Assembly: GCF_029873635.1 (NCBI RefSeq)
Contig: NC_080427.1
Coordinates: 68,950,348 to 69,014,347, forward strand
Origin: Malania oleifera
Lineage: Eukaryota > Streptophyta > Magnoliopsida > Santalales > Ximeniaceae
Length of the DNA: 64,000 nucleotides
Direction of reading: 5' to 3'
Part shown: positions 6,043 through 64,000 of the stretch, piece after piece
How positions within the stretch are numbered: position 1 is the stretch's first letter
Layout: each line of letters begins with the position of its first letter
Notes under the pieces: model-generated
The model's database searches: none
Told to the model about the DNA's origin: nothing
Seen by the model: the letters and a program-made list of their open reading frames with translations, nothing else
Made by a program: the position numbers and the translations under genes

Positions 6043-7949
6043 TATTAGCTTTACCGTGATCCTAAGAGGGAGGGGGGGTGAAATGGTATTTTTAAAATTA
6101 ATGCCCTAGGTCAATATCCTAATAGTAGTATTTTCACAACCCTAAAGTTGATCTAGTTTAAGTAAAATAAATCAATTGCAATATGTAGCAAAAATTAAAT
6201 AATGCAATTTAATCAACTAAGCATGCACTAGAAAGCAGTAAAAGGTAAGTGACACCCAAAAGTATTATCAAGGTTCAGAAAATTGCCTATATCCCCACCT
6301 TAGCTAACAAGCACAAGGATTATCACTATAATGCTCACTTAAACGGGTGGAGCGGCACTTAAACAATCAAGTCAATTAATACAGGGCTGACCTCAATCTT
6401 TACACACAATCCTTACCGGGCTGGATTACCACCCCCTCAGGCTATGCTTGGAATACAACAGTATTTTCTCAATCAACTGGTACAGTGATTATGCTTTCAT
6501 GTAAAGCAAATATGTACCCAATACACGCAGTCACATACACATCAATAATATAGATATAGTGTAAGCTTAGTAATGCAAATAGTTGTGCTAACAACACTCA
6601 ATATGGTATTATTAATGAAATGCTCAAGAGTGTTCAATACAAGTAATATCTTGGAATTTAAGGAAATCACATTGCAATAACAAATCAAGATTCCAAATAT
6701 ATCAATAAGATATTCAAACTAGTACAAGAAGATTTTCTTCAATGAAATAAGCATACTACTAGTTTGAAAATATTTTTGCTTGTTGAAAATATTTTTGCAC
6801 AACAAAAATCAAAGCTATGGAAGTCTTGCAACAATTATGCAAAGACCCCAAAGCTTGTTAGTCTATTTCAACAATGATTTATAATGTGAAATTAGTGGGA
6901 TAAAACTAAGCCAAACTCCCCAAAAAAAATATCACAATCAAACAAGCAAATGGGAGTTTTTTTTTGCAAAATCTAGCAATCACAAGCACACTAAATATGC
7001 TCTCACAATCTCAGAATGTCTCAAGGAAATGGAAATTTGAGAGTATTTGAACAAAAAGAGTATTTGGAAAAAAGAGGATTTTTGGCTAATGAAATTGCTA
7101 ATCCTCACAAATAAGCCTATATTTATAGGCAAGGTAAAAATTATAACCGTTTGGGACTTGTTGGGAATTCTTAGAAAAGTTTCAAAATGTTTAATTGTAA
7201 TTAACCCAAAATAACCTATATTTACCACAGTTAAAATATTTTTAACCCGACGAGATTCGGGTGGCTGAACTATGGTTCAATCACCCAAACAAACATAATA
7301 ATAAAAGGTTTTTAAATTAGTTCAGTAGCCCGAGTTTCAGTTCGGTGGCCTGAATCAAAGTCAGAAACATTTCTTTGGATTTTCAAGTACCCAGTCATAG
7401 GTTCAGTAGCCCGAACTCATGTGTTTGGTCACCCGGGGCTTAATTTGAACTAAATCCCTTGGTAGCCCGAGTTGGTGAAATGTCCTTTTCAGGTGGTTCA
7501 GACGCCCGTGGAAGGCGTGCACAAATTTGTTTGGTCGCCCGAGAGCCTAAGTCAACTATTGACTTCTCAACAGTTTGGGCGCCCAAGGATTTTTGAACTC
7601 CTGGGATTTGCTTGCCTGAACTCTCTCAAATTCCCTAATAATATTCAGTTAAGTGCATTTTTAACACTCATATATTTTGTATGATATATGTGCATGAGTA
7701 TTGGGATCTAAAGTCATACTAGGGTCTTACTGAGCTTATCATATATCCTATATGCATGATATGCAGGTAATTAATACAGACCATATACCTAGTTACTATT
7801 ACAGACCCATATTACATTTATTGAATTTACAATATGAATTAAAATCTTTGGGGTCTTCATGTCTTGCTTCAAGTGTCATTCCTTGACATGCTCATCTAAG
7901 CCTACACAAACACTTGAAAACCATCAAATACCTAAGTATAAGGTCAACA
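6043..7949 (-). repeat. 3' LTR of the - strand copia element
   Basis: Aligns along its length with 14738-16678. On the + strand it starts tattagc (the partner has tgttagg) and ends gtcaaca. Compared with the partner it lacks about 30 bp just before the end (16638-16665). The U5 G-run (gagggaggggggg) is at 6066-6078, and the TATA box on the - strand corresponds to tatttata at 7120-7127. Confidence 0.9.
7240..7615 (-). promoter_or_regulatory. Palindrome-like motif cluster in copia U3
   Basis: Repeated variants of ttcggtcgcccgaa (for example gttcagtagcccgag, gtttggtcacccgg, ttggtcgcccgag) fill the segment upstream (in - orientation) of the TATA box at 7120-7127. The partner LTR has the same cluster at 15955-16325. 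Confidence 0.5.
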
Positions 7950-7964
7950 TTCTCCCCCTTTTTG
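7950..7964 (-). promoter_or_regulatory. Polypurine tract of the - strand copia element
   Basis: ttctccccctttttg on the + strand reads as a purine run ending next to the TG of the 3' LTR. Further PPT-like C runs at about 8012, 8095 and 8470 resemble the multiplied polypurine tracts known in Sireviruses. Confidence 0.75.
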
Positions 7965-8459
7965 ATGATGACAAATACATCATGCAAAAAATGGGTATAG
8001 CCTTAGAAGGCTCCCCCCTAACAATGTGCATTATGTAAAACTTTAAATAATTTTCCATTGAAGTTCAATTCAACCCAATTTTTTGCCCTCTTATCCATGT
8101 CCCCCTTTTGGCAACAGCAAAAATGGCTATGAAACTAATAGCCTTAGGCATTGGGTAAGAATCATTTGTATACACGAGAAGTTTGGAAATTTTAAAAATT
8201 TCGACAGCATACCATTTGAAAATAAGACATTTCCCAAAAATTCCTGTATAAAAATGACCTATTTTGAGTTTTTAAGACCTAACAATTTATCCACAACTAG
8301 TCAATTCAAACAGTTCCAGTATGATCAAGATATAAAACATAAGTGTAATCATCATCATGCAGAAGATATGAGAATTATGCTTTGCAAAACATAATCAATT
8401 TCATAAAGTCCAAGCCAATAAAAGATATCAACAGTTATATTAGTTGTTAGAATTTAAAA

Positions 8460-11400
8460 TTATTTAAAAGCTCCCCCCCAGAATTTATGCAAACTATGAA
8501 ATATCTTGGAGGCATCTCTACTATGCATGAGACCTAATTCACGTCTAATTTGTATGAACCTATCTTCTGGAAGTAGTTTAGTGAAAATGTCTACCCACTG
8601 CTCATTAGTGCATATAAACTCAAGAGCCACATCCCCTTTCTGCGCATGATCACAAAGGAAGTGATGTTTAATTTTAATGTGTTTAGTTCGTGAATGTGAG
8701 ATAGGATTTTTAGACATGTTAATTGCACTAGTATTATCACATATAATTGGTACTATATCATAGTGCAACCCAAAATTCATAAGTTGTTGTTTCTTATAAA
8801 GAGTTTGAGTATAACAACTTCTAGCTGCAATATATTCTGCTTTAGCTGTGGATAAGACAACTGAGTTTTGTTTCTTGGAGAACTAAGAAACGAGAGATTG
8901 TACTAAATAGTGACAAGTGCCGCTAGTGTTATTTCTATCAACCTTACTACCGGCAAAGTCAGCATCAATATAACTTACAATCTTAAAGGTAGTATGCTTA
9001 TGGTACCATAATCCTAACTCTATACTTCCAACTAGATACCTAAGGATTCGTTTAACCGCTATTAGATGAGATTCCTTAGGAGCAGCTTGAAACCTAGCAC
9101 ACATGCACACACTAGGCATAATATCAAGCCTACTAGAAGTGAGATATAGAAGATTCCCAATCATACCACGATACAGTTTCACTTCAACCGGGATTCCTTG
9201 CTCATCTTTATCAAGTTTAATGGAAGAACTCATAGGGGTAGCAAGAATTTTACAATCTTCCATATTAAATTTCCTTAGCAAGTCCCTAACATATTTAGAA
9301 TTGCATATAAAAGTTCCATATTTAGCTTGTTTAATTTGCAGCCCTAAAAAGAAACTAAGCTCACCCATCATGCTCATTTCAAATTCACTTTGAATGCATT
9401 TGGCAAACTCATTACACAATTCATCACTAGTTGCTCCAAAAATGTATCGTCAACATAAATTTGAACTAGGAGCATATCATCATTTTTGAATTTGATGAAG
9501 AGTGTAGTGTCAATCTTGCCACAGGTAAACCCATTTTCTAGTAGAAAACCACTAAGTCTCTCATACCAAGCTCTAGAAGCTTGTTTCAATCCATACAAGG
9601 CCTTAGACAACCAGTAAGCATGATTTGGATATTTATGATTTTTAAAATCGGGTGGTTGTTCTGCATATACTTCCTCATTAATATATCCATTTAGAAAAGC
9701 ACTTTTAACATCCATTTGAAACAATTCAAAGTTTTTAAAAGCGGCATAAGCAAGTAGCATATGAGTGACTTCCAACCTAGCAACAGGAGTATATGTTTCA
9801 TCAAAGTCTATCCCCTCTTCTTGATTATAACCTTGGGCGATTAGTCTAGCCTTATTCCTAGTTACTACCCCATTCTCATCTTTCTTATTTCTATATACCC
9901 ATTTAGTTCCAATAATTGTATGATCATTAGGCCTAGGAACTAGGGTCCACACTCTGCTTCTTTCAAATTGATTAAGTTCTTCTTGCATGAACATCACCCA
10001 AGACTCATCCTCTATGGCTTCTTCAATATTTTTAGGTTCTTCTTGGGACAAGAAAGTGGAATGACTCACTAGGTTCTTCAAGGAAGATCTTGTGGCTACA
10101 CCACAGGATGGTTCACCTATGATTTGATCTACAAGATGGTTCCTAATGAATTTCCAATCTCTAGGAAACTCTTGAACTTCATTTTCATTGTCATTATCTT
10201 CAGATGATTTATCATTTACTTTTGAATTTTCACTTGCATTGTTTTTAATAGATAACTTATGTAAGCATTTTCTATTGTTCATATCATCTTCATAATCTTT
10301 CTTAGAAAATGGATTAGATTCATCAAATACGACATGAATAGATTCAATGACAGTCAATGTTCTTTTATTAAAGACTCTATATGCTCTACTATTAAGAGCA
10401 TAGCCTAGGAAAATGCCTTCATCAGATTTAGAATCAGATTTCCCTAGATGTTCATTATCCTTTAGCACAGAGCATTTACAACCAAAAACATGAAAATAGG
10501 AAATATTATGTTTATGGTTGTTCCACAATTCATAAGGGGTTTTATTAAGTGACGGTCTAATTAACAACCTATTCATGACATAACAAGCAATATTTATGGT
10601 CTCGGCCCAAAAATATTTAAGTAAGTTATGGTAATGACATATTCTTTCTTTCTACCACACCATTTTGTTAAGGAGTCCGAGGTGCGGAAAAGTTATGTGA
10701 CATGCCCTCTAGGTTACAATAAGTTTCTATGCCTTTATTTTTAAATTCAGTACCTCTATCACTTCTTATATGAGTTATCTTATAGCATTTTTCATTTTTC
10801 ATTTTCCTACAAAGCTTAGTAAACTGTTCACATGATTCATTTTTATGCGAGAAAAATAACACCCATGTGAACCTAGAAAAGTCATCAACAATGACAAAAG
10901 CATATGATTTACCACCAAGACTTTGCACAGAATTAGGACCAAACAAATTCAAATAAAACATTTCAAGTGGTCTAGTGGTAGATATAAATTTCTTTTTCTT
11001 AAAACTTGATTTTGTTTGCTTACCCATTTGACATGCATCACATATTTTAACTTTTACAAATGATGTTTTAGGCAAGCCTTTTACTAAATCTTTTCTTACT
11101 AGATTTGACAATAAGTCCATGCTAGCATGTCCTAAACGCTTATGCCACAACCAACTAGCTTCATTTATTGCAGAAAAACAAGTTACTTGTTGTGAAGCTA
11201 AGTTATCAAAAGTAGTAGTGTATACATTTTCATGGCGATGAACATTAAAAAGAACTTTATGATCTGTTTTACTTTCAACTATGCATTTATCATTTTCAAA
11301 TGATACCTCATATCCTTTATCACACAACTGACTTATACTCAATAAGTTATGCTTCAACCCATTAACTAACAAAACATTATCAATAACTAGGGAAGGATCC

Positions 11401-11855: not shown

Positions 11856-13229
11856 TGTCTAGAGGGGGGGGGGGTGAATAGACTTTCTTCCGTGATGTGC
11901 TCACTTTCTATAAACACAGAAATCTTACCAAGAGCAAGTGCATAAAATTTCCGTGTAAAAGGAAATGTAGAAAATCACGATAATAATATAAATGAGATAA
12001 AAGAGAAGAAAAGCTTAACACATTGATATTTACGTGGTTCGGCACCCCGCCTACATCCACGCCTTGATACAAACTCAAGGATTCCCAAAATCCAATAAAA
12101 TCCTCCTTTGGGTGGAGAAGCCAATACACACCAGCTCACAAAGAGCTCCAACAAGGTGCTCACTTAGAGACACCCAAAAACAGCTCACAAAGAGCCCTTT
12201 TTTACAAAAAGGTAGATGAAGATTAAATGTAAGCTTGAATACTCCCTTAAGGTAGTTGAACCAATAAAATCCTTACTCAATATCCTCTATCAATAGAGTA
12301 AATGCAAGACTAAGAGTAGCAAGAAGAGGGCAAGTGATTTTGTGAGTAAACCCTAGAGATGACAACACCAATGAATGATCTTCTTGCAATATGATTTCTC
12401 TAGGTAGGAATTAAATGCTATTTACTCCTATTTATACATTAAATGGGCGAGTGCAAAGCTGGAGAGCCCTTGGGCATTTATGAATGTAAGACAAAATTCA
12501 AAAATAGTCATTCGCAGCATTTAATGTTCGCTGCTGCCCAATGTTCGTCGACGAAGCCTTGTGTTCGTCGATGAGCTCTTCAATAAATTCATCGACGAAG
12601 CCCTGTGTTCGTCGACGAGTTTCTATTTCTGAATTCAGGTACCTCTCGGTATATTTTCGTCGACGAGAACTAGTGTTCGTCGACGAGTCCTTCATGTAAT
12701 TTGTCAACGACGCCCTGTGTTCGTCAACGAGTTGCGGTTCTGAATTCAGATGCCCCTCAGTATCTTTTCGTCGATGAGAACCCTGTGTTCGTTGACGAAG
12801 TTTATACTAAACTCATCAACGAAACCCTGTGTTCGTCGACAAGATCCTCCTTCTTAAAATTTTGTCCTTTTAAGTTTCTAAGAAGGTTCTTGTCCTCTTG
12901 GGGGTTTCTTTATACACTTTTAAATGACTTTACTAGTATTTTGTTGTGTGTGTGTGATACGCCCTTTTCTTGCTCTTAGTATTGAGTTTCACTCTATGTA
13001 TAAGATATTTACAAGATGATATCTCTCTTATTTTACACACTCATTTTTCAGATGACTTTGTACATTTGTTGTATTGTTCATGAATGCTTTAAGAGACTTG
13101 TGCTTCTGGTCATGACATGAGTTGCTTTGACTGTTTGTTGGTTCAAATGCCATTCTGTATACCTGAAACATATCTTAGAGAAACGTTAGTGACCTTAAGA
13201 GAAGCTAATGGGTTGATAACATCAAAACA
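11856..13229 (-). mobile_element. Nested solo copia LTR with perfect TAGTA duplication
   Basis: The 1374-bp insert begins tgtctagagg and ends atcaaaaca on the + strand, so it is TG...CA. It is flanked by TAGTA at 11851-11855 and 13230-13234. The G-run plus tgaata at 11862-11879 is the U5 signature of copia LTRs read on the - strand, so the LTR points left. The phrase acgtggttcggcaccccgcc near 12030 is the conserved U5 module. The TATA box corresponds to tatttata at 12429-12436. It interrupts gag of the host copia and is younger than it. Confidence 0.92.
12535..12845 (-). promoter_or_regulatory. TCGTCGACGA palindrome array in solo LTR U3
   Basis: About ten copies of ttcgtcgacgag or one-base variants lie in 310 bp, mostly in the phrase ccctgtgttcgtcgacga. 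Perfect 10-bp palindromes occur near 12546, 12609, 12658 and 12677. The array lies directly upstream, in - orientation, of the TATA box at 12429-12436. Confidence 0.75.
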
Positions 13230-18668: not shown

Positions 18669-18716
18669 CCTCTCTCTCTCTCTACATTTGATTCTTTCTT
18701 TCTTTCTTTCTCTGTC
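18669..18716 (+). repeat. Pyrimidine microsatellite in the 5' UTR
   Basis: A (CT)n run followed by a (TTTC)n run within the predicted 5' leader. Such tracts are common in plant 5' UTRs. Confidence 0.8.
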
Positions 18717-18775
18717 TGCGGAGCCTTGAGAGACCCGGAGGTGGAATCCGTCCGTTAGCTTCACTGGGGTCTCCA

Positions 18776-21248
18776 ATGGCGAACTTGGTCTTGTCGGAGT
18801 GCGGCATCAGGCCTCTTCCTCGAATCAACATCCGACCCAGAACCGGATTCGTGTGTAACAGCCACGCCGGCCGGGCAAAGATTAGATTTTCGCAACCAGA
18901 AAAGTGGGGAACGGATCTGAAAATTCCTTTCTCGAGTAGAGGGAGAGAGTGGGGGCTAAAGGTGAGTGCTCCTTTGAGGGTGGCGACGGTGGATGGAGAT
19001 GAGAGAGGGGAGAGAATCAGCGGCGTTAATGGGCTCGGAGACGGCGCCGATTTCAATCCCGGGGCGCCGCCTCCGTTCAAGCTTGCCGACATTCGGGCCG
19101 CCATTCCCAAGCATTGTTGGGTGAAGGACCCCTGGAAGTCCATGAGCTATGTTTTTAGGGACGTCGTTGCGGTTTTTGGGTTAGCGGCGGCGGCTGCTTA
19201 TCTGGACACTTGGTTTGTTTGGCCTCTTTATTGGGCTGCTCAGGGCACCATGTTCTGGGCTCTCTTTGTTCTCGGCCATGATTGGTAACTCCATCGTTTC
19301 TGCCTAGATCTAATTTCTCCCTCCTTCTCTCCCTCTCTCTGCCTCTGTTGTTTAGTTTGGATACCCAATTGTTTGTTCTGATGTTATTTGTAATTGATTT
19401 TGATGCTGCAGCGGCCATGGAAGTTTCTCAAACAATCCCAAACTGAACAGTGTGGTTGGGCATTTGCTGCATTCTTCAATTCTTGTGCCTTATCATGGAT
19501 GGTGTGCTCCTAATAGCCTGCTTATCTTTCTGCATATATTTTCTTATGGGTTTTGAGCCATGTCTTGATTTAAATATGTACTGTCTATACAATTATTTAG
19601 CTGATGGAGCTGTTTTATCTTAATGAACTATTTATTATGAATCTTAACAGGAGAATTAGTCATAGGACTCATCATCAAAACCATGGGCATGTTGAGAATG
19701 ATGAATCTTGGCACCCAGTAAGTTTGTTTCCTTTGTTCATAGGTTTTCTATCTGTTCAGCGCCCTATTCATTTATTAATTTTAATAATCATGTATTTCTG
19801 TTGTTTTCTTGCTTACATTTGCAGCTACCTGAGAAAATTTACAAGAATTTGGATAACATTACCAAGATTTTGCGGTTCACAGCACCTTTTCCTATGCTTG
19901 CATATCCTGTCTATCTGGTAGGTTGTTTTCCTGTTGATTGATTTAGTCATTGTGTGAAGCTCCTAGCTGCTAACAACTGCTCTTTACAGTGGGTTAGAAG
20001 TCCTGGAAAGACTGGTTCCCACTTCCACCCAAGCAGTGACTTGTTTGTTCCCGCTGAGAGGAAAGATGTTATCACTTCCACTGTCTGTTGGGCAGCCATG
20101 GCTGCTTTGCTTGTGGGTTTGTGCTTTGTAATGGGTCCTGTTCAAATGCTTAAACTATATGGTGTTCCTTACTGGGTGAGTTCCATCACTTCAATCTTTT
20201 TATGTTTCTGTGCTATCAATATTGAACTTGTCTGGGTTAGCTTCCCCAATCCGAGATGTTCTCATATGACTTTGGTTCTATATCAGATTTTTGTTATGTG
20301 GCTGGATTTTGTGACTTACATGCACCACCATGGCCATGAAGACAAACTTCCTTGGTATCGTGGCCAGGTATGGATCTCCAAGGCACCATGCTACTTATGT
20401 GTTTGATTTTCTTTTCTAGATAGAAATTGAAAAATAAGAATGGCCTCCAACAATATATGTTGCTGTAATTTCCACAATGACCAGTACTAGTAAATTTTCC
20501 CTAAAACTTAGAAACCAGGAAAAGAGGATCCTTTTTTTTTTTTTTTCCAGATTTCAGAACTTTAGGCTGTGAATTGACAACTTCAACTTGATGAACAACC
20601 ACTTATGCCTCTTTTCTCAGCCAGCTTTCACCCTTGTTATATAACAAAAACTTCAGTCTCTATTCTACAAGAATTTAAAGTTTAATTTGCTTCTGTTTTG
20701 CTGTAGTCGGGTGTTTTAAAGGGCATTAAAAAGAACTGAAGTTAGTTGGCATGACTTTTCATTTGTAAAATTTACATTTCTCCATTTTTCATGGTTTCTA
20801 TGGAACAGGAATGGAATTATTTAAGGGGAGGGCTCACTACTATTGATCGTGATTACGGATTAATCAACAATATCCACCATGATATTGGAACCCATGTGAT
20901 ACATCATCTCTTCCCCCAAATCCCTCACTACCACTTGATAGAAGCGGTGAGTATCTCCTTGGTTAGATGGAATAACTGTAATGGAAGTTTCACTCCAGCA
21001 TATATTGTTTGTTCGTTCCTCCTTTGATGATTGTGTTTTTATTTTCAATTTGAACATTTTAGACACAGGCAGCTAAACCAGTGCTCGGGAAGTATTACCG
21101 GGAGCCAAAGAAGTCAGGATTTCTGCCATTTCATCTAATTGGGAGCTTGTTAAGAAGCTTGAAAAAAGATCGTTATGTCAGTGACGCTGGGGATGTTGTG
21201 TACTACCAAACTGACCTGCAGCTTAACAAGTCTCCTGAATCCAAATGA
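18776..21248 (+). CDS. FAD7: Chloroplast omega-3 fatty acid desaturase (8 exons)
   Basis: Adds the omega-3 double bond to 18:2 and 16:2 acyl chains on chloroplast membrane lipids, giving 18:3/16:3. It is a di-iron membrane enzyme using ferredoxin as electron donor (family knowledge). Exons: 18776-19284, 19412-19501, 19651-19717, 19825-19917, 19990-20175, 20287-20367, 20809-20946, 21063-21248; all introns are GT-AG and the frame is kept, giving 449 residues. The start [16 protein letters not shown] is characteristic of plastid FAD7. Residues 1 to about 75 form a basic, Ser/Arg-rich transit peptide, and the core begins at GAPPPF (96-101). Histidine boxes are HDCGH 168-172 (split by intron 1), HRTHH 204-208 and HVIHH 371-375. 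Hydrophobic membrane spans lie near 125-165 and 275-300. There is no ER-retention-type tail. The paralogue FAD8 cannot be excluded. No break is seen, so it looks functional. Confidence 0.95.
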
Positions 21249-23127: not shown

Positions 23128-23212
23128 TGTAGAGATTCGAATAATTTTGATAATTTAATAATAGGAGAAGGAGAGAAAATGAATTAAAATTGAAAAATTA
23201 AACAGGGTCTCG

Positions 23213-23395
23213 TCAACGAACACAGGAGATTTGTCGACGAGTACACATGAGGAGCTCGTCGACGGGGACGTGTCTCGTCGACGAGAAGATACCGAGAGGA
23301 TATATCTCAGTTCTGAATTTCGTCAACAATGATAAGCATTTGTCGACGAATTTCCTTCTTGACCTCGTCGACGAAGTGATGTGACTCGTCAACGA
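23213..23395 (+). promoter_or_regulatory. TCGTCGACGA palindrome cluster upstream of gypsy LTR TATA
   Basis: Copies of ctcgtcgacgag and variants occur near 23214, 23231, 23257, 23275, 23340, 23366 and 23385, ending about 10 bp before the TATA box at 23405. The same module in the 3' LTR (32095-32285) is eroded by C-to-T and G-to-A changes (for example tcgatgag). Confidence 0.75.
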
Positions 23396-24070: not shown

Positions 24071-25879
24071 TGTAAGAACTCGATCCGTGAGATCTGGAAT
24101 AAATTAATAAAGAGAAAGGTAAAATAGTAATTGTGCAGAGTTCGTTGACGAAGCCAGAGTTCGTCGGCGAAGGCCTTTTGCTGCTCGGCGACGAAATGCA
24201 GGGGCTCGTCGGCGAGGAGAAATTTAGAGGTTTTGGGAAACCGAAAATCTCAGGCTCGTCGACGAGACCACCGTTTCGTTGACGAACCGTCTACATTGGC
24301 TCGTCGACGAAGATGCCATTCGTCGACGAGGTCGTCCAAGTCAAAAGGCTATAAATATCATTTTCCTTTGCTTCCAAGTTAAGTAATCTAGAAATCCTCT
24401 CTCTCTCTCTCTCTAGAACTCGAAGGGCATTCTCTCTCTCTAGATTTCTTCGTCGTACGTTGTTGGAATTGTCGATCCGACGTTACCACGAGGATCAAGG
24501 AAGGATTCTCTTCAAGATTTGTGGAACAGATCTTCATTCCGAGCATTTTCGGGTTTTGACTCAAAATCGAGGTTAGGCTCGATTTTCAATTCTGTTTTGG
24601 TAGTTTTGTAAAGAATGGAATTGTGAACATATTGTGTACTGTGGTTTATATGTTTTGGGAACTCGGTCCACTATTTAGGGACCGTAAAGATCAGGATTGG
24701 TCGTTTGGGGAAAGGTAAAGAGATTTTGTTTATGTCGATTATTTTTGAAATCATACTCGGTAGAATTGTGGTTCACGGTCCTGCGTGCGTTTTGGTTATT
24801 TATTTGGGGGGGTCTAACAGGTAAAAATTGTGGGTTTTTTATGTTACAGTTTTAGGAAAAAGGGGGCATTGGGTTGCATCTCTGGTTTTTTTGGAAAACC
24901 ATGAATATATTGTGATATATATTATGTTATGGGGATGGTCGTGCCTTGACTTGTTTAAACTGTATATTTTTGGAAAATCATGATTTTAGATTGCCAAATG
25001 GGTGTGGATTTGTTTGGTTATATGAACATGCATGAGTTGTGTTTTACTGCAATGAAATAGGAAGTGGGTTCTGAATTGTTCTAGGTTGTGAAAGAGTATC
25101 CGACTCTATATCTGAGGGTGTGAAATATCACTTGCCATATTTGGCAAGAGTGTCTGGCTTTATATCTGAGGGATTGAGCCTTACCGATTGATCACTGAAG
25201 GGTGTGGATCCACCAGTTGTAGCCGTACGATGACTTGGGAGCCTAGGCTACGCCATATGCCGGGGACGCCGTGTAATGCCGGCCGGCTTTTGAGCTGAAG
25301 GGTGTGACAACACCGGGTTACTTAATCATGTGTGTGTGCGTGTGATGTATTGTACTAGAATTGTTTTGTGAAAATACTAGAATTGCATTGAACTGTGTAT
25401 GTTTTATGTCATGATAACACTCATATGCCACACACTGATATAACCTAGATCTGCCTTACTAAGATGTGTCTCACCCCTACTTTACTACATATTTTTTCAA
25501 GTCCTTCGAGTAACCGGAACTAGCGTCCTTGTGTTGGGAGTGTAGTGGTAGTTATACTGCGGATAGCACTTGTGTAAGTGTTAGGACTTTTGTTTTTGGG
25601 TTGTCATTATGGGGTATGGTTGGCACCCAAGTTTATGTTTTGTATTATGGAGCCCAGACTTCTGTTGTATAAACTCTGGTATGGTACATTGTATATATAG
25701 AAAGAATATTTTCTGCTGCCTATTTGTCATATTTTTGAATGTATATAGGGTGCTTGGGAACCCCACGAGATCGAACCCTCATTCATTTGGTATTGTATCA
25801 TTGGTGATTTGTATGATACAGGGATATGTTAGGTTACTATTTCACCCCTGGGTCTCATTACCAGGTTCGAGGTGTGACA
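24071..25879 (+). mobile_element. Nested solo LTR with perfect ATAAC duplication
   Basis: 1809 bp, tgtaagaactcg ... ggtgtgaca, flanked by ATAAC at 24066-24070 and 25880-25884. The unoccupied site is visible in the sister LTR near 32957. It has a palindrome cluster (perfect copies near 24252, 24301 and 24321) just before a TATA box at 24350-24357, and a CT-rich stretch after it. Its length and layout suggest a gypsy-type LTR, from a different family than its host. Confidence 0.92.
24125..24335 (+). promoter_or_regulatory. TCGTCGACGA palindrome cluster in the nested LTR
   Basis: Eight or so copies, including ttcgttgacgaag, ctcgtcggcgag and perfect tcgtcgacga, in about 210 bp. The TATA box follows within about 15 bp. 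Confidence 0.75.
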
Positions 25880-44028: not shown

Positions 44029-46020
44029 TGTTGGAATTGGTATATTCCTAAGAGGGAGGGGGGGGGGGGGTGAATTGGAAATTTAAACTTTCACCTAGGT
44101 CAATTCATATTCCTTAAGCAGTATTGCACAAACCTAGGGTCTTTCTATACAATCATAAACCCAATCAAGTATTTAAACAATTAAATGCAAACATTAAAGT
44201 GTTGAAATTTAAAGTGCGAAAATTAAAAGTAGGCACAAGTAATGTTATCGGGGTTCGGCAAATACTGCCTAAGTCCCCGCCTCAAGCTCACAAGCAAGAG
44301 GATTCCACTATAGCTCACTTAACGGGTGGAGCGGCACCTAATACAACACCTTAATAGGATGGTGCACCTAGTTCTCCTAATTGGGTCTGAACCAGTCCGT
44401 GACTTTTCACAGGGAAAGTCTCCCTCTTCCAACCACACGTCGGGAATACAACAGATATGAAATTTTTCATACAAACAAATATGATTCTTACACTAAGAAG
44501 ATATGTACCACTATGTACAATCAATTAATGCACTCACATATGATAGGATATTAAGCTCAAGTGAGATTTCGTTAACCAATGTGTTAACTCTCAACAATAT
44601 GTGTGTCAATATGTATATGTGAGAGTGAGACCTTTGATTTCAAGATAATGTATTTGCAATGTGAATATTCAAAGCATCTCTAGAACCTTAAACAAACATC
44701 CCAAAAACATTTTTCAAATATCAAGCACAATGGATTTAGGGTTTAAGCTTGCTGAAAAAAAATGATTTTATCAAAGCACAAAGCAAGCTTATGAAACTTG
44801 CAATAAGGATGAAAGTTCTTAAGCCAGTGAAGAGTTTTTCCCAATCTAATATTTATAAGTAAAATTCCATGGGAAAAACTTTAAGCTACTCTCCAAAATC
44901 AACAATCAACAAATGCAAGTATGGTAGAGTTGTTAGCTTGCAAAGAGAATAAATGAATACCCACAAAAATAATCTCTCTCAAAGACATATAATTTAAATG
45001 AGTATGAGAAGGAGATTTTGTAATATGCTTTGTAAAAAATGGGAGTATGAAAGATTTAGCACAATCAATTTTCAGAAAAATTTTTTGCTAATCTATATTC
45101 TAATGATTTACTAATTATGACAAATAAGGGGGTATATATAGAGTAGGACAAAAATCTAACCGTTAGGGACATATAAGGCCATTGGGGACATATGAGGTAT
45201 TTTAGAAATTGTTTAATTATGTTTAATAAAAATTAATCCTGTTTAACATGCGGTAAAAATGTCCAACCCGAGAGGTTTCGGTTGACCATATTTGAGGTTC
45301 GGTCGACTATATTATTGAGTTCGGTTGACCGTGGCCATTTTTGAACTGGAGATTTGGTTGACCGTATCAAGGCATTTTCGAACCCTTCGAAGTTTGGTTG
45401 ACCAAGGTAGTTTCGGTTGACCATTTTCTAAGGTTCGGTCGACCAAGTCAGTTTTGAACTAGTGGTTCAGTTGACCAAGTTGTTAGGAGTCAGCCACGTG
45501 TTAGTTCGGTCGACTGTTGAAGGCAAGTTCATTTCAGAACGGTCGACCGAGTAGTCAACATGTTGACTTTGATAAGTTTAGTTGACCGAAGCTTCTATAT
45601 AGCTTTGGGTTCGGTTGACCGAGACCACTTAAAATGAGCATTTAAGTTTTGTTTTGGTCTCAGTGCTTCATCAACTTAGTGTAATTAAGCATGAGACATT
45701 TTAAGTTATATGGGTGATGATTCCTATGGTCATTCTAAGGCCTCTTGAGCATACACACCCTATCACACATGATATGCAAATATTACAGACCATTATTATA
45801 GACCTAGAAACTACATGCAATTAGCATAAAAGAAAATGTGTCTCCTTACTCTTCACTTTATGGAGTAAGCTAGGTATATGTGTATTATTCGTCTTGGCCT
45901 CTATTCTCTCTATCCCTTATATGTGATCTCAATTATGGACCTATTCACATGCTAAATACACACATAAGTTCACTGTGTTTCGTCAGCATCAAAACAGAGA
46001 TTGGACTCAAAAAGTTAACA
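44029..46020 (-). repeat. 3' LTR of a Sirevirus-like copia, - strand
   Basis: 1992 bp, tgttggaa ... gttaaca on the + strand. The right end plus the C-rich run at 46022-46034 is the LTR/PPT junction of a - strand element. It is the same family as the solo LTR at 3523-5506 (matching outer ends, U5 ttccaaca end). The G-run is at 44050-44069, the U5 module ttcggcaaatactgcctaag near 44255, and the TATA complement tatatata at 45133-45140. Confidence 0.85.
45265..45640 (-). promoter_or_regulatory. TTCGGTTGACCG/GGTCGACCGA motif cluster in copia U3
   Basis: About a dozen copies of ttcggt(t/c)gacc and variants, including ggtcgaccgag near 45542, sit upstream (in - orientation) of the TATA box at 45133-45140. 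Confidence 0.65.
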
Positions 46021-47285
46021 ATCTCCCCCTTTTTTATGATGACAAACATGCATGAGCAAAATGGGTCCAGCCTAAAAAGGTCCCCCCTAAGAATATGCAT
46101 ATCGTAAAAAGATAATCAATAATCAATGATTTAGTTCAGGCATATTCAGAAAAATAAGACATAGGACGTTTCAACAACATTTGCATTTTGTCTTGTCAGT
46201 TAGATACAAGCACTCATGCATTTTGCTCAATAAAACCTCTCCCTCTTTTGGCATCAGCAAAAGAGTTAAACTAAGAAGAATATGTGATGGCTGTAAAAGA
46301 ATTCTTAGATTGAGAATGGCGGTCCCCTTTTCAAAAGATGTTCATTTTGCTTAAATGAGTTCTCCCCCTTTTTGATTCAATATTTTGAATATATGCCCCT
46401 TTGATTTTAGAAGATTGGGCATAGCAATTTGGCACACAAACAAGAAACAAAGAGTATATTTAATGTTCAACCATTTCATGCCAAATAAAACCGTAAGAAT
46501 ATATAAAGATTTAACAATCACATGCAAAATCATATGGCAGAATCAAAGTCTATGTGGCAAGTATTATATTTTCCACTTAAGGTGTTCAATAAAAAATGTA
46601 ACAATCAAGTGCATGCCACAATATGTTTCAATGCATATCTAAGCTTAAGAAGATTGGTAAGGACAAACAAGATAAGAAGTTTTTTTTTTCAAGAGCTCCA
46701 CCTATCGATTTGAGATCTAGCTTAAATGAAGTAAATTTGCTTATACTAAATAAGGTTAATCTCATTAAGCACGCTAAGCAGTATAAGCAACTATCTTTTC
46801 TCCCCTAAATATCTGATGATTATGTAAGGATGAATTTGGTATTTATTTTGTTTTCACTCATCCTTTCAAAATGATTTTATCATTTTCATCTTTATATTTT
46901 GGAAAAATTTCTGTCGAAATTTCAGCAGCATGCCATCTGTAAAATGAACATTTTCCAAACTTGTAGGTCAAGAAAAAATCATACAGAATATGTGCTAGTA
47001 TTACACATCATTGCATCAACCATGCAGGTGGCATTCTTGATATAAACGATAAAACATAAATAGTAGTGATAGTTGGTGCATGATCAAGTAATATAGTCAC
47101 CAACATTATCAGTTCAACCATCAACAGTAGCTATCAGTAATTACCCAACCATCAAATGTGTAGGGCAAATAGTGGGTGAAAGTGCAGTGCAATCGATGGA
47201 AAGAAAAATGTATGATGTTTATTTATACAGACCAAGATAAAAAGTAGGCAAATAAAGATATACTAAAAGCAAATTTCTTCATGAT
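46021..47285 (-). mobile_element. 3' non-coding internal region of the Sirevirus-like copia
   Basis: Homologous to 7950-8460 (ctccccctttttgatgatgac, atgggt(a/c)(t/c)agcct, tcccccctaa). Repeated PPT-like runs are at 46022, 46080, 46238, 46321, 46363 and 46800. The stretch 46898-47040 (ggaaaaattt, cagcagcatgcc, tctgtaaaatg, cattttcc, later acacatcattgc, gcaggtggcattct) aligns with the 865-bp satellite units. Confidence 0.8.
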
Positions 47286-53623: not shown

Positions 53624-54100
53624 CACTACAAAAAATTAGGGTATTAGTGACGATTTTAAAATATTTGCTATATGTGCCGTTACTACTAACTTTTAGTGAT
53701 GAATTCAAAATTTCGTCACTAATAATGGAGTATTAGCGACAAATTATAACTATCACTAAAACCCTAATACTGTCACTATATAGTTTCGAATGGCTCAACT
53801 CAAATTTGTCACTAATAGTAGGGTATTAGTGACGAATTTGAAATTTGTCACTACTAGTAGGGTATTAGTGATAAATTTATAATTCGTCACTAAAAGTAGG
53901 GTATTTGTGAAGGATTGAAATTCGTCACTAATAGTTTGGTATTAGTGACGAATTATAGATTTGTCACTAATACTCTGGCATTAGTGAAGGATTCAAATTC
54001 GTCACTAATACCCTGGCATTAGTGAAGTCAAATTCGTCACTAATAGTAGGGTATTAGTGACGAATTTGAATCCTTCACTAATAATTAGAAAAATAAAAAA
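53624..54100 (+). mobile_element. One end of a CACTA (En/Spm) transposon
   Basis: Starts with cactacaaaaaatta, the canonical CACTA terminus. About 450 bp of subterminal repeats follow: ttagtgacgaatt and its complement aattcgtcactaa alternate many times, each pair able to form a hairpin. The opposite terminus was not found, so the element is truncated or its right border is eroded. Confidence 0.75.
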
Positions 54101-54828: not shown

Positions 54829-55501
54829 GCATGAGATTAGTTTGTGGGGGATTTGCACAATGACTCAATGAGGTATTAGCATTGCGTGGGGAAGGGGATG
54901 CAATGAATAAATCCAGTCGGGGACATGTGTCCATTAGCATGCTTTACTGTTTCGTAGACAAGCATTATTGCTCTACTTGAAATAAAATTCTAGACATTGA
55001 TTGTGGGAAATGAGAAGATTCATGGAGAAAAAGGTCATGAACTGGCATGAGCAAGTGTGTATCTTTTCAAGTCTCAATAAGAAAATATAAGAACTAAGTA
55101 AAATATGCCAGTCAAATGGACATGAAATTGGTTATTTGTTTGGTAGCTGAGAAAATCATGGAAAATAAAATATGCCCTAGGCGCTTTCATCGGTGATCTT
55201 GTGCATGGACCCTTTTTTTTTTTTTTTCCACTTTTTTTTTATTCTTTTCTATAGTGACATTGCAACCCATATGTCCAGACGAATCCCTAATTTGTGTCAC
55301 ATCTTGGCATTCCTATGGATTTTCAAAACTTGAAATTTGAAGCATAAATGGAAGAAGGGTGAATGTGGCTACGTGGGCAATATTTACATTTAACTATCCA
55401 CTTTTTAGATGAATCCAACTTAGAATTTGACCTTATCTGTGTAATATTTTAATTAGGACTGATGGAGATGTCAATCCAATCGTTATTACTTTAAAATTCA
55501 T
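54829..55501. other. Unassigned sequence
   Basis: No coding frame, repeat or element signature recognised, apart from T runs near 55211-55240. Confidence 0.35.
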
Positions 55502-55788
55502 TTTATCATAATTATCTGTGTTCATGGTTTTTTTTTTTTGGGAAAATTTTAACGAAAATTCGGTAGCATGCCGTTCATAAATTGGACATTTTTCCATAAA
55601 ACCTACACCTAATAGGTTCAAATAGATCATTTATAAGAAGTTCAAGGCATACGAGAACCTATATCCACTACCAGCATGCAATACACATTAACTGCATCTG
55701 CTGTGCAGGAGGCATTCTAGACTAGCATGCAATCATGTAGCAATCAACAATTCACGACAGTAATACATGTATCCATTAAATTCAGAAT
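55502..55788 (+). repeat. Divergent partial satellite unit outside the array
   Basis: Aligns with the first ~290 bp of the array unit (tatcataattatc, gcatgccgtt, cacctaataggttc, catgcaatacacatt, tgcaatcatgtagc) with clearly more differences than between array units. It lacks the ggaggatgcat block. It looks like an older relative of the array unit. Confidence 0.8.
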
Positions 55789-56118
55789 ATAAATAGCAGA
55801 AAACAGTGGATAGTATTGAGTTCAGTGTAGTATTGTTATTCATCTAAGAATTTGGACATGAAAGTTATGAGATGATGAGAGTATTTAATTTAAATAATTA
55901 TGAAAATGATGCTCCCTCTGAGTTATTTATATATTCAACTTATGCCTTTTTCAAATTTTCAAATCCTTAGTCAAGTGTTTATAATATTTTCAATGATTTC
56001 GGCTCGGCAATGAATGCTTTAGACTTACCGGACCAAAAACATATAAATGAATGCTTCTTTAAACGAACTAAGCCTATATTGCCTCATTTCTTATGATTCC
56101 TGACTTTCACTCATCATT
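55789..56118. other. Unassigned spacer before the satellite array
   Basis: AT-rich and not part of the repeat unit. Nothing recognised. Confidence 0.4.
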
Positions 56119-56523
56119 TTAAAAATATTTTAACATCAAAGCTTATCATAATTATCGGTGTACATGGTTTTAATTTTTTTTTTTGGAAAAATTTTAACGA
56201 AATTTTAGTAGCATGCCGTCTGTAAATTGGACATTTTCCCATAAAACCTGCACCTGATAGGTTCAAATAAGTCATTTATAAGAAGTTCAAGGGACACGAG
56301 AACCTATATCCACTACAAGCATGCAATACACATCAACTGCATTCGCCAAGCAGGAGGCATTCTAGACTAGCATGCAATCATGTAGCAATCAACAATTCAT
56401 GACAATAGTACATGTATCCATTAAATTCAGAATATCCAACAAGTAAAGCTATCATCCGTACAAGATGAATAGCTATAATATAAAAATTTCCCAACTAAAC
56501 AAGATATACAACTACAATAACAA

Positions 56524-59500
56524 TTGAAAAAAAAAAAAAAACTCGTACGCATTATGCAACCATATCAAGTAATTAGAAATGACAACATCCAAAAGCAGGA
56601 TGGATCCATAAGGAGGATGCATTTAGAAGGAGCATATATCCAAAATGACGGTCCGTTCATAGGAAGCCGCATCGAAAAAGAAGATGCATCCTCAAGGAGG
56701 ATGCATCAAAAGGAGGTTGAATCCGTAGAGAGGATGCATAGGCATATCCACAAGGAGGATGCTTTCACAAGGATGATGCATTCAAAAAGTGCAACACTAA
56801 TGGAACTTTTTGAAACAAGAAAGATTAAAAAATAATATTACTCTCAAGTCATATCTGTTTGTAATATTGATTTTTTGCATTATTCATGCAAACTATCTAT
56901 AACTACATAATATAAAAATTGCCCCAAATATGAGACTTTAGTTCTTCCCTAAATTTGTACTTTTCCTAGAGAATACATGTAATGCTAAAAATATTTTAAC
57001 ATCAAAGCTTATCATAATTATCGGTGTACATGGTTTTCATTTTTTTTTTGGGAAAATTTTAACGAAATTTTAGTAGCATGCCGTCTGTAAATTGGACATT
57101 TTCCCATAAAACCTGCACCTGATAGGTTCAAATAAGTCATTTATAAGAAGTTCAAGGGACACGAGAACCTATATCCACTACAAGCATGCAATACACATCA
57201 ACTGCATTCGCCAAGCAGGAGGAATTCTAGACTAGCATGCAATCATGTAGCAATCAACAATTCATGACAATAGTACATGTATCCATTAAATTCAGAATAT
57301 CCAACAAGTAAAGCTATCATCCGTACAAGATGAATAGCTATAATATAAAAATTTCCCAACTAAACAAGATATACAACTACAATAACAATTGAAAAAAGAA
57401 AAAAAACTCGTACGCATTATGCAACCATATCAAGTAATTAGAAATGACAACATCCAAAAGCAGGATCGATCCATAAGGAGGATGCATTTAGAAGGAGCAT
57501 ATATCCAAAACGACGGTCTGTTCATAGGAAGCCGCATCGAAAAAGAAGATGCATCCACAAGGAGGATGCATCAAAAGGAGGTTGAATCCGTAGAGAGGAT
57601 GCATAGGCATATCCACAAGGAGGATGCTTTCACAAGGATGATGCATTCAAAAAGTGCAACACTAATGGAACTTTTTGAAACAAGAAAGATTAAAAAATAA
57701 TATTATTCTCAAGTCATATCTGTTTGTAATATTGATTTTTTGCATTATTCATGCAAACTATCTATAACTACATAATATAAAAATTGCCCCAAATATGAGA
57801 CTTTAGTTCTTCCCTAAATTTGTACTTTTCCTAGAGAATACATGTAATGCTAAAAATATTTTAACATCAAAGCTTATCATAATTATCGGTGTACATGGTT
57901 TTCATTTTTTTTTTTTGGAAAATTTTAACGAAATTTTAGTAGCATGCCGTCTGTAAATTGGACATTTTCCCATGAAACCTGCACCTGATAGGTTCAAATA
58001 AGTCATTTATAAGAAGTTCAAGGGACACGAGAACCTATATCCACTACAAGCATGCAATACACATCAACTGCATTCACCAAGCAGGAGGCATTCTAGACTA
58101 GCATGCAATCATGTAGCAATCAACAATTCATGACAATAGTACATGTATCCATTAAATTCAGAATATCCAACAAGTAAAGCTATCATTCGTACAAGATGAA
58201 TAGCTATAATATAAAAATTTTCCAACTAAACAAGATATACAACTACAATAACAATTGAAAAAAAAAAAAAAACTCGTACGCATTATGCAACCATATCAAG
58301 TAATTAGAAATGACAACATCCAAAAGCAGGATGGATCCATAAGGAGGATGCATTGAGAAGGAGCATATATCCAAAACGACGGTCCGTTCATAGGAAGCCG
58401 CATCGAAAAAGAAGATGCATCCACAAGGAGGATGCATCAAAAGGAGGTTGAATCCGTAGAGAGGATGCATAGGCATATCCACAAGGAGGATGCTTTCACA
58501 AGGATGATGCATTCAAAAAGTGCAACACTAATGGAACTTTTTGAAACAAGAAAGATTAAAAAATAATATTATTCTCAAGTCACATCTGTTTGTAATATTG
58601 ATTTTTTGCATTATTCATGCAAACTATCTATAACTACATAATATAAAAATTGCCCCAAATATGAGACTTTAGTTCTTCCCTAAATTTGTACTTTTCCTAG
58701 AGAATACATGTAATGCTAAAAATATTTTAAAATCAAAGTTTATCATAATTATCGGTGTACATGGTTTTCATTTTTTTTTTGGGAAAATTTTAACGAAATT
58801 TTAGTAGCATGCCGTCTGTAAATTGGACATTTTCCCATAAAACCTGCACCTGATAGGTTCAAATAAGTCATTTATAAGAAGTTCAAGGGACACGAGAACC
58901 TATATCCACTACAAGCATGCAATACACATCAACTGCATTCGCCAAGCAGGAGGCATTCTAGACTAGCATGCAATCATGTAGCAATCAACAATTCATGACA
59001 ATAGTACATGTATCCATTAAATTCAGAATATCCAACAAGTAAAGCTATCATTCGTACAAGATGAATAGCTATAATATAAAAATTTTCCAACTAAACAAGA
59101 TATACAACTACAATAACAATTGAAAAAAAAAAAAAACTCGTACGCATTATGCAACCATATCAAGTAATTAGAAATGACAGCATCCAAAAGCAGGATGGAT
59201 CCATAAGGAGGATGCATTTAGAAGGAGCATATATCCAAAACGACGGTCCGTTCATAGGAAGCCGCATCGAAAAAGAAGATGCATCCACAAGGAGGATGCA
59301 TCAAAAGGAGGTTGAATCCGTAGAGAGGATGCATAGGCATATCCACAAGGAGGATGCTTTCACAAGGATGATGCATTCAAAAAGTGCAACACTAATGGAA
59401 CTTTTTGAAACAAAAAAGATTAAAAAATAATATTATTCTCAAGTCATATCTGTTTGTAATATTGATTTTTTGCATTATTCATGCAAACTATCTATAACTA

Positions 59501-61160
59501 CATAATATAAAAATTGCCCCAAATATGAGATTTTAGTTCTTCCCTAAATTTGTACTTTTCCTAGAGAATACATGTAATGCTAAAAATATTTTAACATCAA
59601 AGCTTATCATAATTATCGGTGTACATGGTTTTCATTTTTTTTTTTGGGAAAATTTTAACGAAATTTTAGTAGCATGCCGTCTGTAAATTGGACATTTTCC
59701 CATAAAACCTGCACCTGATAGGTTCAAATAAGTCATTTATAAGAAGTTCAAGGGACACGAGAACCTATATCCACTACAAGCATGCAATACACATCAACTG
59801 CATTCGCCAAGCAGGAGGCATTCTAGACTAGCATGCAATCATGTAGCAATCAACAATTCATGACAATAGTACATGTATCCATTAAATTCAGAATATCCAA
59901 CAAGTAAAGCTATCATCCGTACAAGATGAATAGCTATAATATAAAAATTTTCCAACTAAACAAGATATACAACTACAATAACAATTGAAAAAAAAAAAAA
60001 ACTCGTACGCATTATGCAACCATATCAAGTAATTAGAAATGACAATATCCAAAAGCAGGATGGATCCATAAGGAGGATGCATTTAGAAGGAGCATATATC
60101 CAAAACGACGGTCCCTTCATAGGAAGCCGCATCGAAAAAGAAGATGCATCCACAAGGAGGATGCATCAAAAGGAGGTTGAATCCGTAGAGAGGATGCATA
60201 GGCATATCCACAAGGAGGATGCTTTCACAAGGATGATGCATTCAAAAAGTGCAACACTAATGGAACTTTTTGAAACAAGAAAGATTAAAAAATAATATTA
60301 TTCTCAAGTCATATCTGTTTGTAATATTGATTTTTTGCATTATTCATGCAAACTATCTCTAACTACATAATATAAAAATTGCCCCAAATATGAGACTTTA
60401 GTTCTTCCCTAAATTTGTACTTTTCCTAGAGAATACATGTAATGCTAAAAATATTTTAACATCAAAGCTTATCATAATTATCGGTGTACGTGGTTTTCAT
60501 TTTTTTTTTTGGGAAAATTTTAACGAAATTTTAGTAGCATGCCGTCTGTAAATTGGACATTTTCCCATAAAACCTGCACCTGATAGGTTCAAATAAGTCA
60601 TTTATAAGAAGTTCAAGGGACACGAGAACCTATATCCACTACAAGCATGCAATACACATCAACTGCATTCGCCAAGCAAGAGGCATTCTAGACTAGCATG
60701 CAATCATGTAGCAATCAACAATTCATGACAATAGTACATGTATCCATTAAATTCAGAATATCCAACAAGTAAAGCTATCATCCGTACAAGATGAATAGCT
60801 ATAATATAAAAATTTCCCAACTAAACAAGATATACAACTACAATAACAATTGAAAAAAAAAAAAAACTCGTACGCATTATGCAACCATATCAAGTAATTA
60901 GAAATGACAGCATCCAAAAGCAGGATGGATCCATAAGGAGGATGCATTTAGAAGGAGCATATATCCAAAACGACGGTCCGTTCATAGGAAGCCGCATCGA
61001 AAAAGAAGATGCATCCACAAGGAGGATGCATCAAAAGGAGGTTGAATCCGTAGAGAGGATGCATAGGCATATCCACAAGGAGGATGCTTTCACAAGGATG
61101 ATGCATTCAAAAAGTGCAACACTAATGGAACTTTTTGAAACAAGAAAGATTAAAAAATAA
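56524..61160 (+). other. Recurrent 93-103-codon open frame in satellite units
   Basis: Open frames at 56524-56835, 57389-57700, 59149-59430, 60014-60295 and 60879-61160 (and 62609-62890 beyond). They encode a peptide with repeated RRMH / EDAS / KEDAFTRMMH motifs, produced by the ggaggatgcat microrepeat. Units starting at 57872 and 61332 have a TGA in the frame (atgcattgag), and unit 63062 has a one-base deletion (gaagagc). It is therefore unlikely to be a selected gene. Confidence 0.6.
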
Positions 61161-61331
61161 TATTATTCTCAAGTCATATCTGTTTGTAATATTGATTTTT
61201 TGCATTATTCATGCAAACTATCTATAACTACATAATATAAAAATTGCCCCAAATATGAGACTTTAGTTCTTCCCTAAATTTGTACTTTTCCTAGAGAATA
61301 CATGTAATGCTAAAAATATTTTAACATCAAA
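57872..61331 (+). repeat. Higher-order repeat block 1 (four units, 3460 bp)
   Basis: Units starting at 57872, 58738, 59602 and 60467 carry private variants that reappear in the same order 3460 bp downstream: cattgagaagg and ccatgaaacc; aatcaaagtttatc and gaaacaaaaaag; gtcccttcat; gtgtacgtgg. Confidence 0.88.
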
Positions 61332-64000
61332 GCTTATCATAATTATCGGTGTACATGGTTTTCTTTTTTTTTTTTTGGAAAATTTTAACGAAATTTTAGT
61401 AGCATGCCGTCTGTAAATTGGACATTTTCCCATGAAACCTGCACCTGATAGGTTCAAATAAGTCATTTATAAGAAGTTCAAGGGACACGAGAACCTATAT
61501 CCACTACAAGCATGCAATACACATCAACTGCATTCGCCAAGCAGGAGGCATTCTAGACTAGCATGCAATCATGTAGCAATCAACAATTCATGACAATAGT
61601 ACATGTATCCATTAAATTCAGAATATCCAACAAGTAAAGCTATCATTCGTACAAGATGAATAGCTATAATATAAAAATTTTCCAACTAAACAAGATATAC
61701 AACTACAATCACAATTGAAAAAAAAAAAAAAACTCGTACGCATTATGCAACCATATCAAGTAATTAGAAATGACAACATCCAAAAGCAGGATGGATCCAT
61801 AAGGAGGATGCATTGAGAAGGAGCATATATCCAAAACGACGGTCCGTTCATAGGAAGCCGCATCGAAAAAGAAGATGCATCCACAAGGAGGATGCATCAA
61901 AAGGAGGTTGAATCCGTAGAGAGGATGCATAGGCATATCCACAAGGAGGATGCTTTCACAAGGATGATGCATTCAAAAAGTGCAACACTAATGGAACTTT
62001 TTGAAACAAGAAAGATTAAAAAATAATATTATTCTCAAGTCATATCTGTTTGTAATATTGATTTTTTGCATTATTCATGCAAACTATCTATAACTACATA
62101 ATATAAAAATTGCCCCAAATATGAGACTTTAGTTCTTCCCTAAATTTGTACTTTTCCTAGAGAATACATGTAATGCTAAAAATATTTTAAAATCAAAGTT
62201 TATCATAATTATCGGTGTACATGGTTTTCATTTTTTTTTTGGGAAAATTTTAACGAAATTTTAGTAGCATGCCGTCTGTAAATTGGACATTTTCCCATAA
62301 AACCTGCACCTGATAGGTTCAAATAAGTCATTTATAAGAAGTTCAAGGGACACGAGAACCTATATCCACTACAAGCATGCAATACACATCAACTGCATTC
62401 GCCAAGCAGGAGGCATTCTAGACTAGCATACAATCATGTAGCAATCAACAATTCATGACAATAGTACATGTATCCATTAAATTCAGAATATCCAACAAGT
62501 AAAGCTATCATTCGTACAAGATGAATAGCTATAATATAAAAATTTTCCAACTAAACAAGATATACAACTACAATAACAATTGAAAAAAAAAAAAAACTCG
62601 TACGCATTATGCAACCATATCAAGTAATTAGAAATGACAGCATCCAAAAGCAGGATGGATCCATAAGGAGGATGCATTTAGAAGGAGCATATATCCAAAA
62701 CGACGGTCCGTTCATAGGAAGCCGCATCGAAAAAGAAGATGCATCCACAAGGAGGATGCATCAAAAGGAGGTTGAATCCGTAGAGAGGATGCATAGGCAT
62801 ATCCACAAGGAGGATGCTTTCACAAGGATGATGCATTCAAAAAGTGCAACACTAATGGAACTTTTTGAAACAAAAAAGATTAAAAAATAATATTATTCTC
62901 AAGTCATATCTGTTTGTAATATTGATTTTTTGCATTATTCATGCAAACTATCTATAACTACATAATATAAAAATTGCCCCAAATATGAGATTTTAGTTCT
63001 TCCCTAAATTTGTACTTTTCCTAGAGAATACATGTAATGCTAAAAATATTTTAACATCAAAGCTTATCATAATTATCGGTGTACATGGTTTTTATTTTTT
63101 TTTTTGGGAAAATTTTAACGAAATTTTAGTAGCATGCCGTCTGTAAATTGGACATTTTCCCATAAAACCTGCACCTGATAGGTTCAAATAAGTCATTTAT
63201 AAGAAGTTCAAGGGACACGAGAACCTATATCCACTACAAGCATGCAATACACATCAACTGCATTCGCCAAGCAGGAGGCATTCTAGACTAGCATGCAATC
63301 ATGTAGCAATCAACAATTCATGACAATAGTACATGTATCCATTAAATTCAGAATATCCAACAAGTAAAGCTATCATCCGTACAAGATGAATAGCTATAAT
63401 ATAAAAATTTTCCAACTAAACAAGATATACAACTACAATAACAATTGAAAAAAAAAAAAAACTCGTACGCATTATGCAACCATATCAAGTAATTAGAAAT
63501 GACAACATCCAAAAGCAGGATGGATCCATAAGGAGGATGCATTTAGAAGAGCATATATCCAAAACGACGGTCCCTTCATAGGAAGCCGCATCGAAAAAGA
63601 AGATGCATCCACAAGGAGGATGCATCAAAAGGAGGTTGAATCCGTAGAGAGGATGCATAGGCATATCCACAAGGAGGATGCTTTCACAAGGATGATGCAT
63701 TCAAAAAGTGCAACACTAATGGAACTTTTTGAAACAAGAAAGATTAAAAAATAATATTATTCTCAAGTCATATCTGTTTGTAATATTGATTTTTTGCATT
63801 ATTCATGCAAACTATCTTTAACTACATAATATAAAAATTGCCCCAAATATGAGACTTTAGTTCTTCCCTAAATTTGTACTTTTCCTAGAGAATACATGTA
63901 ATGCTAAAAATATTTTAACATCAAAGCTTATCATAATTATCGGTGTACGTGGTTTTCATTTTTTTTTTTGAGAAAATTTTAACGAAATTTTAGTAGCATG
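61332..64000 (+). repeat. Higher-order repeat block 2 (partial)
   Basis: Repeats the unit order of block 1, variant by variant. The fourth unit (63926 onward, with gtgtacgtgg) is cut by the window edge. Confidence 0.88.

Follow-up and report, generated by a model that had tools for sequence, protein, structure and literature searches.

A 13-unit tandem array inside a CACTA transposon of Malania oleifera, with a repeat unit probably derived in part from a Sirevirus-type linker

The window analyzed here, a stretch of 64,000 nucleotides on contig 11 of the 1.49-Gb Malania oleifera assembly, contains two Sirevirus-type elements and a tandem array, and the repeat unit of the array resembles the 3' non-coding region (linker) of these elements. 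How did retrotransposon-like sequence become part of a tandem repeat? The initial annotation had regarded the array as a satellite that descended from a Sirevirus 3' region by way of a dispersed single copy. The reading favored here, to which we assign a probability of about 85%, is that the array expanded in tandem inside a single member of an abundant CACTA (En/Spm) transposon family, following the capture of a Sirevirus linker fragment and its spread with the element.

Sequence shared by Sirevirus-type linkers and the repeat unit

The retrotransposon features relevant to this question are:
7940..8480, minus strand: 3' linker of Sirevirus element 1, with a diverged copy of the shared block at 8182-8465 and a polypurine octamer at 7952
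44245..46018 (left end approximate), minus strand: 3' LTR of Sirevirus-type element 2, which aligns over 1774 bp at 86% in the related locus L033
46023..46030, minus strand: octamer AGGGGGAG (polypurine) with the AT/TG junction at the element-2 3' LTR, read from the sequence
46852..47045, minus strand: linker block of element 2, from self-blastn and shuffle-tested alignment, with relatives at 82-88% elsewhere

Element 1, a copia element, is oriented on the minus strand. Its LTRs are at 6045-7939 and 14740-16638 (pair identity 89%), and its copia-type pol is recognized by the Pfam domains RVT_2, rve, and related domains. According to the accessible part of a published account (PMC2829016), Sirevirus linkers contain multiple polypurine tracts, with an octamer and an AT/TG junction rule at the 3' LTR, and CGGTCGACCG-like boxes are the motif given for a Vitis element. 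The window resembles that description in the AGGGGGAG octamers of its linkers, the AT/TG junction of element 2, and the CGGTCGACCG-like boxes, for which 9 of the window's 21 matches (≤2 mismatches) fall in the element-2 3' LTR. All three exact AGGGGGAG octamers in the window lie within the two linkers, at 46023 and 46362 in element 2 and at the 3' LTR (7952) in element 1, where the junction is AA/TG rather than AT/TG. The accessible part of the same account mentions neither the block described below nor its occurrence in CACTA elements. Two further observations from the window concern clusters of TCGTCGACGA-like palindromes (12545-12842, 23210-23395, and 24142-24329; 31 window matches at ≤1 mismatch), which resemble the repeated boxes of Sirevirus LTRs yet are located partly inside element 1, and an omega-3 fatty acid desaturase exon at 18692-19288 (PF11960 in relatives).

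No pol was seen in element 2, which is interrupted near 47840. A genome query with its block retrieved the block itself and 39 other places at 82-88% identity (best 40 of 1551 candidates), 14 of which were read at 10 kb each. Element-2-like LTR sequence was found in 13 of these 14 loci (all except L037), in some over only about 100 bp. Pol matches were absent from five relatives flanked by LTR sequence on both sides (L030, L034, L035, L036, and L064), and the element-2 family therefore looks largely non-autonomous as judged from its sequence; weak gag matches were obtained in L030, L035, and L064, and RT/RNase H-like matches of about 30% identity in L032.

The homology between the linker block and the repeat unit is real by the alignment measures applied. 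Within the window, self-blastn matched 46883-46956 to the array units at 81-84% identity over 74 bp (E down to 3e-13), and a gapped local alignment placed 46863-47040 against 56142-56366 in the same order and on the same strand. Aligned to the unit on the plus strand, the element-2 linker scored 118, compared to a maximum of 68 in 200 dinucleotide shuffles and a score of 49 on the other strand, which bears out the initial proposal that 46898-47040 and the unit share short runs in the same order and orientation. A weaker match proposed at 8180-8260 in element 1 also proved real (score 88; shuffle maximum 69) and is longer than had been stated, pairing 8182-8465 with 57047-57354. Scanning the window with a profile built from the known copies gave no additional block with an E value below 0.17.

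The block core around GGCATGC is retained even in very diverged Sirevirus-type linkers. A conserved RNA hairpin in this core was unconvincing, its RNAalifold value of -2.8 being equalled by 10 of 200 column shuffles. The letters of the block had no match in a literature text search; short block patterns had no matches in viral contigs and 11 in prokaryote contigs, all in bacterial records and taken as chance.

The CACTA transposon and its sister copies

The array and the single block copy at 55487-55790 both lie inside one 24.4-kb CACTA DNA transposon, which extends from 53624 to 78056:
53624..53653, plus strand: left terminal inverted repeat, with its partner ending at 78056, 14 kb outside the window
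53640..54090, no strand assigned: subterminal repeats GTCACTAATA / TATTAGTGAC, mirrored in inverted arrangement at 77137-78030
55487..55790, plus strand: block A of the CACTA element, found in all 10 other copies fetched
55791..56121, plus strand: flank, homologous to the Sirevirus-type linker beside the block; its polypurine tract, at about 55910, is degenerate
56122..64000, plus strand: 13-unit array continuing to 67339, each unit of about 865 bp comprising block B and about 550 bp of CACTA-specific sequence
56586..56784, plus strand: 17-bp subrepeats, which recur in the CACTA-specific portion of every unit

The terminal inverted repeats at 53624 and 78056 begin with CACTA and are identical at 29 of 30 positions, and both ends of this copy are flanked by CCC. 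CACTA elements create target duplications of 3 bp. The minus strand of the element encodes Transposase_21 (tnp2-type; E 2.7e-64), Transpos_assoc, DUF4218, and DUF4216 in separate frames. Terminal inverted repeats, a 3-bp duplication, tnp2, and inverted subterminal repeats are thus all present, as in CACTA (En/Spm) elements. The tnp2 frames of the window copy are interrupted, and therefore it probably makes no whole transposase. Genome-wide, the terminal repeat occurred at 1065 places with ≤2 mismatches and its reversed control at none; several hundred ends related to those of this copy are present in the genome. A diverged block copy is also found further along the same CACTA span (L020 and L021: 73856-74106, 75527-76203), with fragments of copia RT and integrase at a distance of about 1.4 kb on the minus strand. 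These copia fragments at 73-76 kb probably represent a Sirevirus-type insertion nested in the window CACTA copy.

Sister copies were sought in the 1.49-Gb genome with the part of the unit outside the block (57301-57980) as query, and the best 40 of 2483 candidates were scored. Thirteen matches belonged to the array and the other 27, at 90-94% identity, to places outside it, and all of them stopped at query positions 545-552, no more than 7 bases from the right border of the unit. Any two of the 27 outside matches were more than 60 kb apart, so that no tandem pair exists among those listed. Counts for sister copies rest on 10 of the 27 places. In all 10, block A was followed by the 330-bp flank and then by a single complete 865-bp unit, and the array thus is an expansion inside a dispersed element. 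The right flank of the array was matched over at least 160 bp in nine sisters and over only about 40 bp in the tenth (L052), and in all four sisters tested, a left terminal repeat was located no further than about 110 bp from its predicted place. Two sisters (L052 and L059) had three modules of block A plus flank, the first of which was at or cut by the edge of the fetched sequence, and L058 had one extra partial module of this type.

In structure, the CACTA family thus contains the block in two modules, one consisting of block A and the flank and the other of block B and about 550 bp of CACTA-specific sequence. The number of first modules varies between copies, and the two-module arrangement is dispersed over the chromosomes along with the transposon. 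Block A and the blocks of the array units are 88.7-89.8% identical across 292-309 bp (self-blastn). The homology to the element-2 linker probably starts slightly further left than the array, at 46852 versus 56105; for this leftward stretch alone, 24 of 200 shuffles reached its score, and at the same place in the sister loci a 33-bp match was found in 8 of 10 (E 4e-8 to 7e-7). The second block of the sisters is preceded by the same sequence as the block of element 2, and the second module therefore begins like a linker. The copy at 55502-55788, initially seen as an intermediate between retrotransposon and satellite, is block A of the very element that carries the array, as in all 10 sisters. 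The unit was also considered as a Helitron or MITE, but it has no terminal inverted repeats and its borders, judged by eye, are unlike Helitron ends.

Origin of the linker-like sequence

About 315 of the 865 bp of the unit are linker-like. The sequence from 55489 to about 56100, comprising block A and the flank, formed one continuous alignment with the linker of LTR element L034, in which the flank matched at 76% over 314 bp (E 3e-55); the corresponding value for L064 was 75% over 314 bp. Identities between CACTA and LTR copies ranged from 79 to 82%, and L034 and L064 were 89% identical to each other. The polypurine octamer of the flank was intact in both LTR copies (L034 and L064) and in none of 16 CACTA flank copies, which derive from the ten CACTA loci and the window; four pattern matches elsewhere in the loci were left out. 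A 1200-bp query from the L034 linker recovered itself, element 2, and 38 other places (best 40 of 8713). Of these 38, 25 spanned the block, the flank, and more than 220 bp beyond, and they count as L034-like linkers because a CACTA copy would not cover the sequence beyond the flank; L064 is the one of the 25 that was read. Among the 14 loci found with the element-2 block, only L034 contained the flank.

It is quite improbable that the block was originally neither Sirevirus nor CACTA sequence but an independent mobile or conserved piece which entered each of them separately. Such an origin would agree with element 1, in whose linker it is the block region that aligns to the unit, but the homology between the CACTA copies and L034/L064 continues through 330 bp of flank, and the block is therefore not a self-contained piece.

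The remainder of the unit, including the 17-bp subrepeats, had no match at E 1e-8 in 18 LTR-element slices (L024-L037, L064, both window elements, and the 73-kb region), and homology to the end of the element 1 pol, which was also tried, did not exceed shuffles. The proposed derivation of the unit from a Sirevirus 3' non-coding region thus most likely holds for about 315 of its 865 bp, whereas the remainder belongs to the CACTA element. LTR elements with 865-bp units near their 3' LTR, which the initial annotation had suggested looking for, were absent from the 18 slices, and an Ogre-like situation with arrays inside the retrotransposon was not observed. Occurrence of the block in unrelated, non-element DNA had been named as evidence against a Sirevirus origin; the block does occur in other DNA, yet this DNA is itself a mobile element.

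Breadth of distribution, position, and the octamer, all read from sequence, suggest that transfer proceeded from a Sirevirus-type element to CACTA. Block trees, from which the too diverged block of element 1 was left out, do not prove this direction. With the 73.9-kb row included, a grouping of all LTR-element blocks against CACTA blocks was not rejected (p-AU 0.44), and without this row the LTR-element blocks already formed one side of a branch. The opposite course, in which block and flank originated within the CACTA family and were taken up by Sirevirus-type elements from a CACTA insertion, is unlikely. It would be consistent with the reciprocal groups that the trees permit and with the abundance of CACTA copies (the 2483 first-look candidates for the unit part), but the block also occurs, strongly diverged, in the linker of the pol-bearing element 1 and, at 73.9 kb, at a distance of 1.4 kb from a fragment of copia RT, the flank has an intact Sirevirus octamer in LTR elements only, and none of the 18 LTR-element slices contains the CACTA-specific part of the unit. 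We therefore retain capture by CACTA, in which an ancestral element would have taken in about 560-630 bp of Sirevirus-type 3' linker, consisting of the block and the flank with its polypurine tract. The fragment would then have been duplicated within the element and spread with it, before the second module expanded in one copy. No CACTA copy free of the linker piece was seen among the copies read, and the capture borders are estimates.

Growth of the array and comparison to known systems

The 13 units of the assembled array follow the order u1 u2 A B C D A B C D D A B, with a period of four units. A search of the 1.49-Gb genome gave 12 exact occurrences of the unit-to-unit junction, all of them in this array; the string with one mismatch was not among the matches listed, four listed matches had two mismatches, and the total at ≤3 mismatches was 118, compared to 95 for the reversed control. 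Because the exact junction is found only here, inside the CACTA element and not at several loci or in carrier-independent arrays, the array is a single-locus expansion and not a genome-wide satellite family, as far as this junction tells. Birth of a true satellite directly from a Sirevirus linker, with 55487-55790 as its dispersed intermediate, is accordingly very improbable: the block homology itself would be expected, but the array, the single copy, and the flanks are parts of one CACTA element common to all 10 sisters, the junction is unique to this array, and the 18 LTR-element slices lack the unit remainder. From the path initially drawn from retrotransposon over dispersed copy to array, the linker source remains likely, whereas dispersed copy and array belong to one CACTA element.

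Units within the array differ by 1.0% (0.12-1.5%, 78 pairs) and dispersed copies by 7.5% (5.9-9.5%, 45 pairs), and therefore the spread came first and the expansion later. The array junction joins AATGC to AAAATATTTT over TA, and TA is present at both borders; the left TA is found in the window copy and L053, in place of the CA of most sisters. In all 10 sisters, TATC and a run rich in C come directly after the right border of the unit (C15 in the window copy). In the window copy, the 865-bp second module was duplicated head to tail, presumably by microhomology over TA, and the array may then have grown to exactly 13 units by unequal exchange or slippage of multi-unit blocks. Most likely the array has no function for the host and is a passenger, a length-variable stretch 3' of the transposase genes.

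Several published systems are comparable, as far as the accessible parts of the sources go. The Jozin CACTA element of Chenopodium quinoa has an internal array of a 171-bp satDNA, and its authors termed arrays inside CACTA elements "captured (or possibly generated)" (PMC8978399). Like the array described here, that of Jozin lies 3' of the coding region within a CACTA element of the tnp2 type, but it occurs in several elements and its source was not traced (PMC8978399), whereas the Malania unit contains a retrotransposon linker piece, sister copies have one unit, and the array is present in one copy only. A CACTA element was likewise the source of tandem repeats for the Chenopodium satellite CficCl-61-40, derived from a tnp2 fragment of Jozin (PMC7320549); there a transposase stretch of about 40 bp served as start monomer and the resulting satellite occurs genome-wide, compared to non-coding DNA of mixed origin at one locus here. 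Retrotransposon 3' non-coding regions also feed tandem repeats in Lathyrus, where satellites originated from 3'UTR tandem repeats of Ogre elements (Ty3/gypsy); those arrays grow from repeats within the retrotransposon (PMC7004042), in contrast to the growth after transfer to a DNA transposon proposed here. No report of a Sirevirus piece inside an amplified CACTA segment was recognized among the open-licence papers listed by the searches.

Three stages are thus found side by side in Malania: an LTR-element linker as source, a CACTA carrier with a single unit and many copies, and a 13-unit array with a higher-order period. Because block A plus flank has been tripled in L052 and L059 and the block B module forms 13 units in the window copy, it is conceivable, though rather doubtful, that the Sirevirus linker block is an amplification-prone seed that was tandemly multiplied at least twice independently in CACTA, with the transposon as a relay to many sites where arrays can start and the C-rich run at the right border of the unit as a possible stall or break point. 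For arrays in CACTA elements, the sister copies analyzed here point to generation in place. The case unites a retrotransposon linker, a DNA-transposon carrier, and a local array, and it cautions that a tandem repeat with a match to a retrotransposon did not necessarily arise in that retrotransposon.
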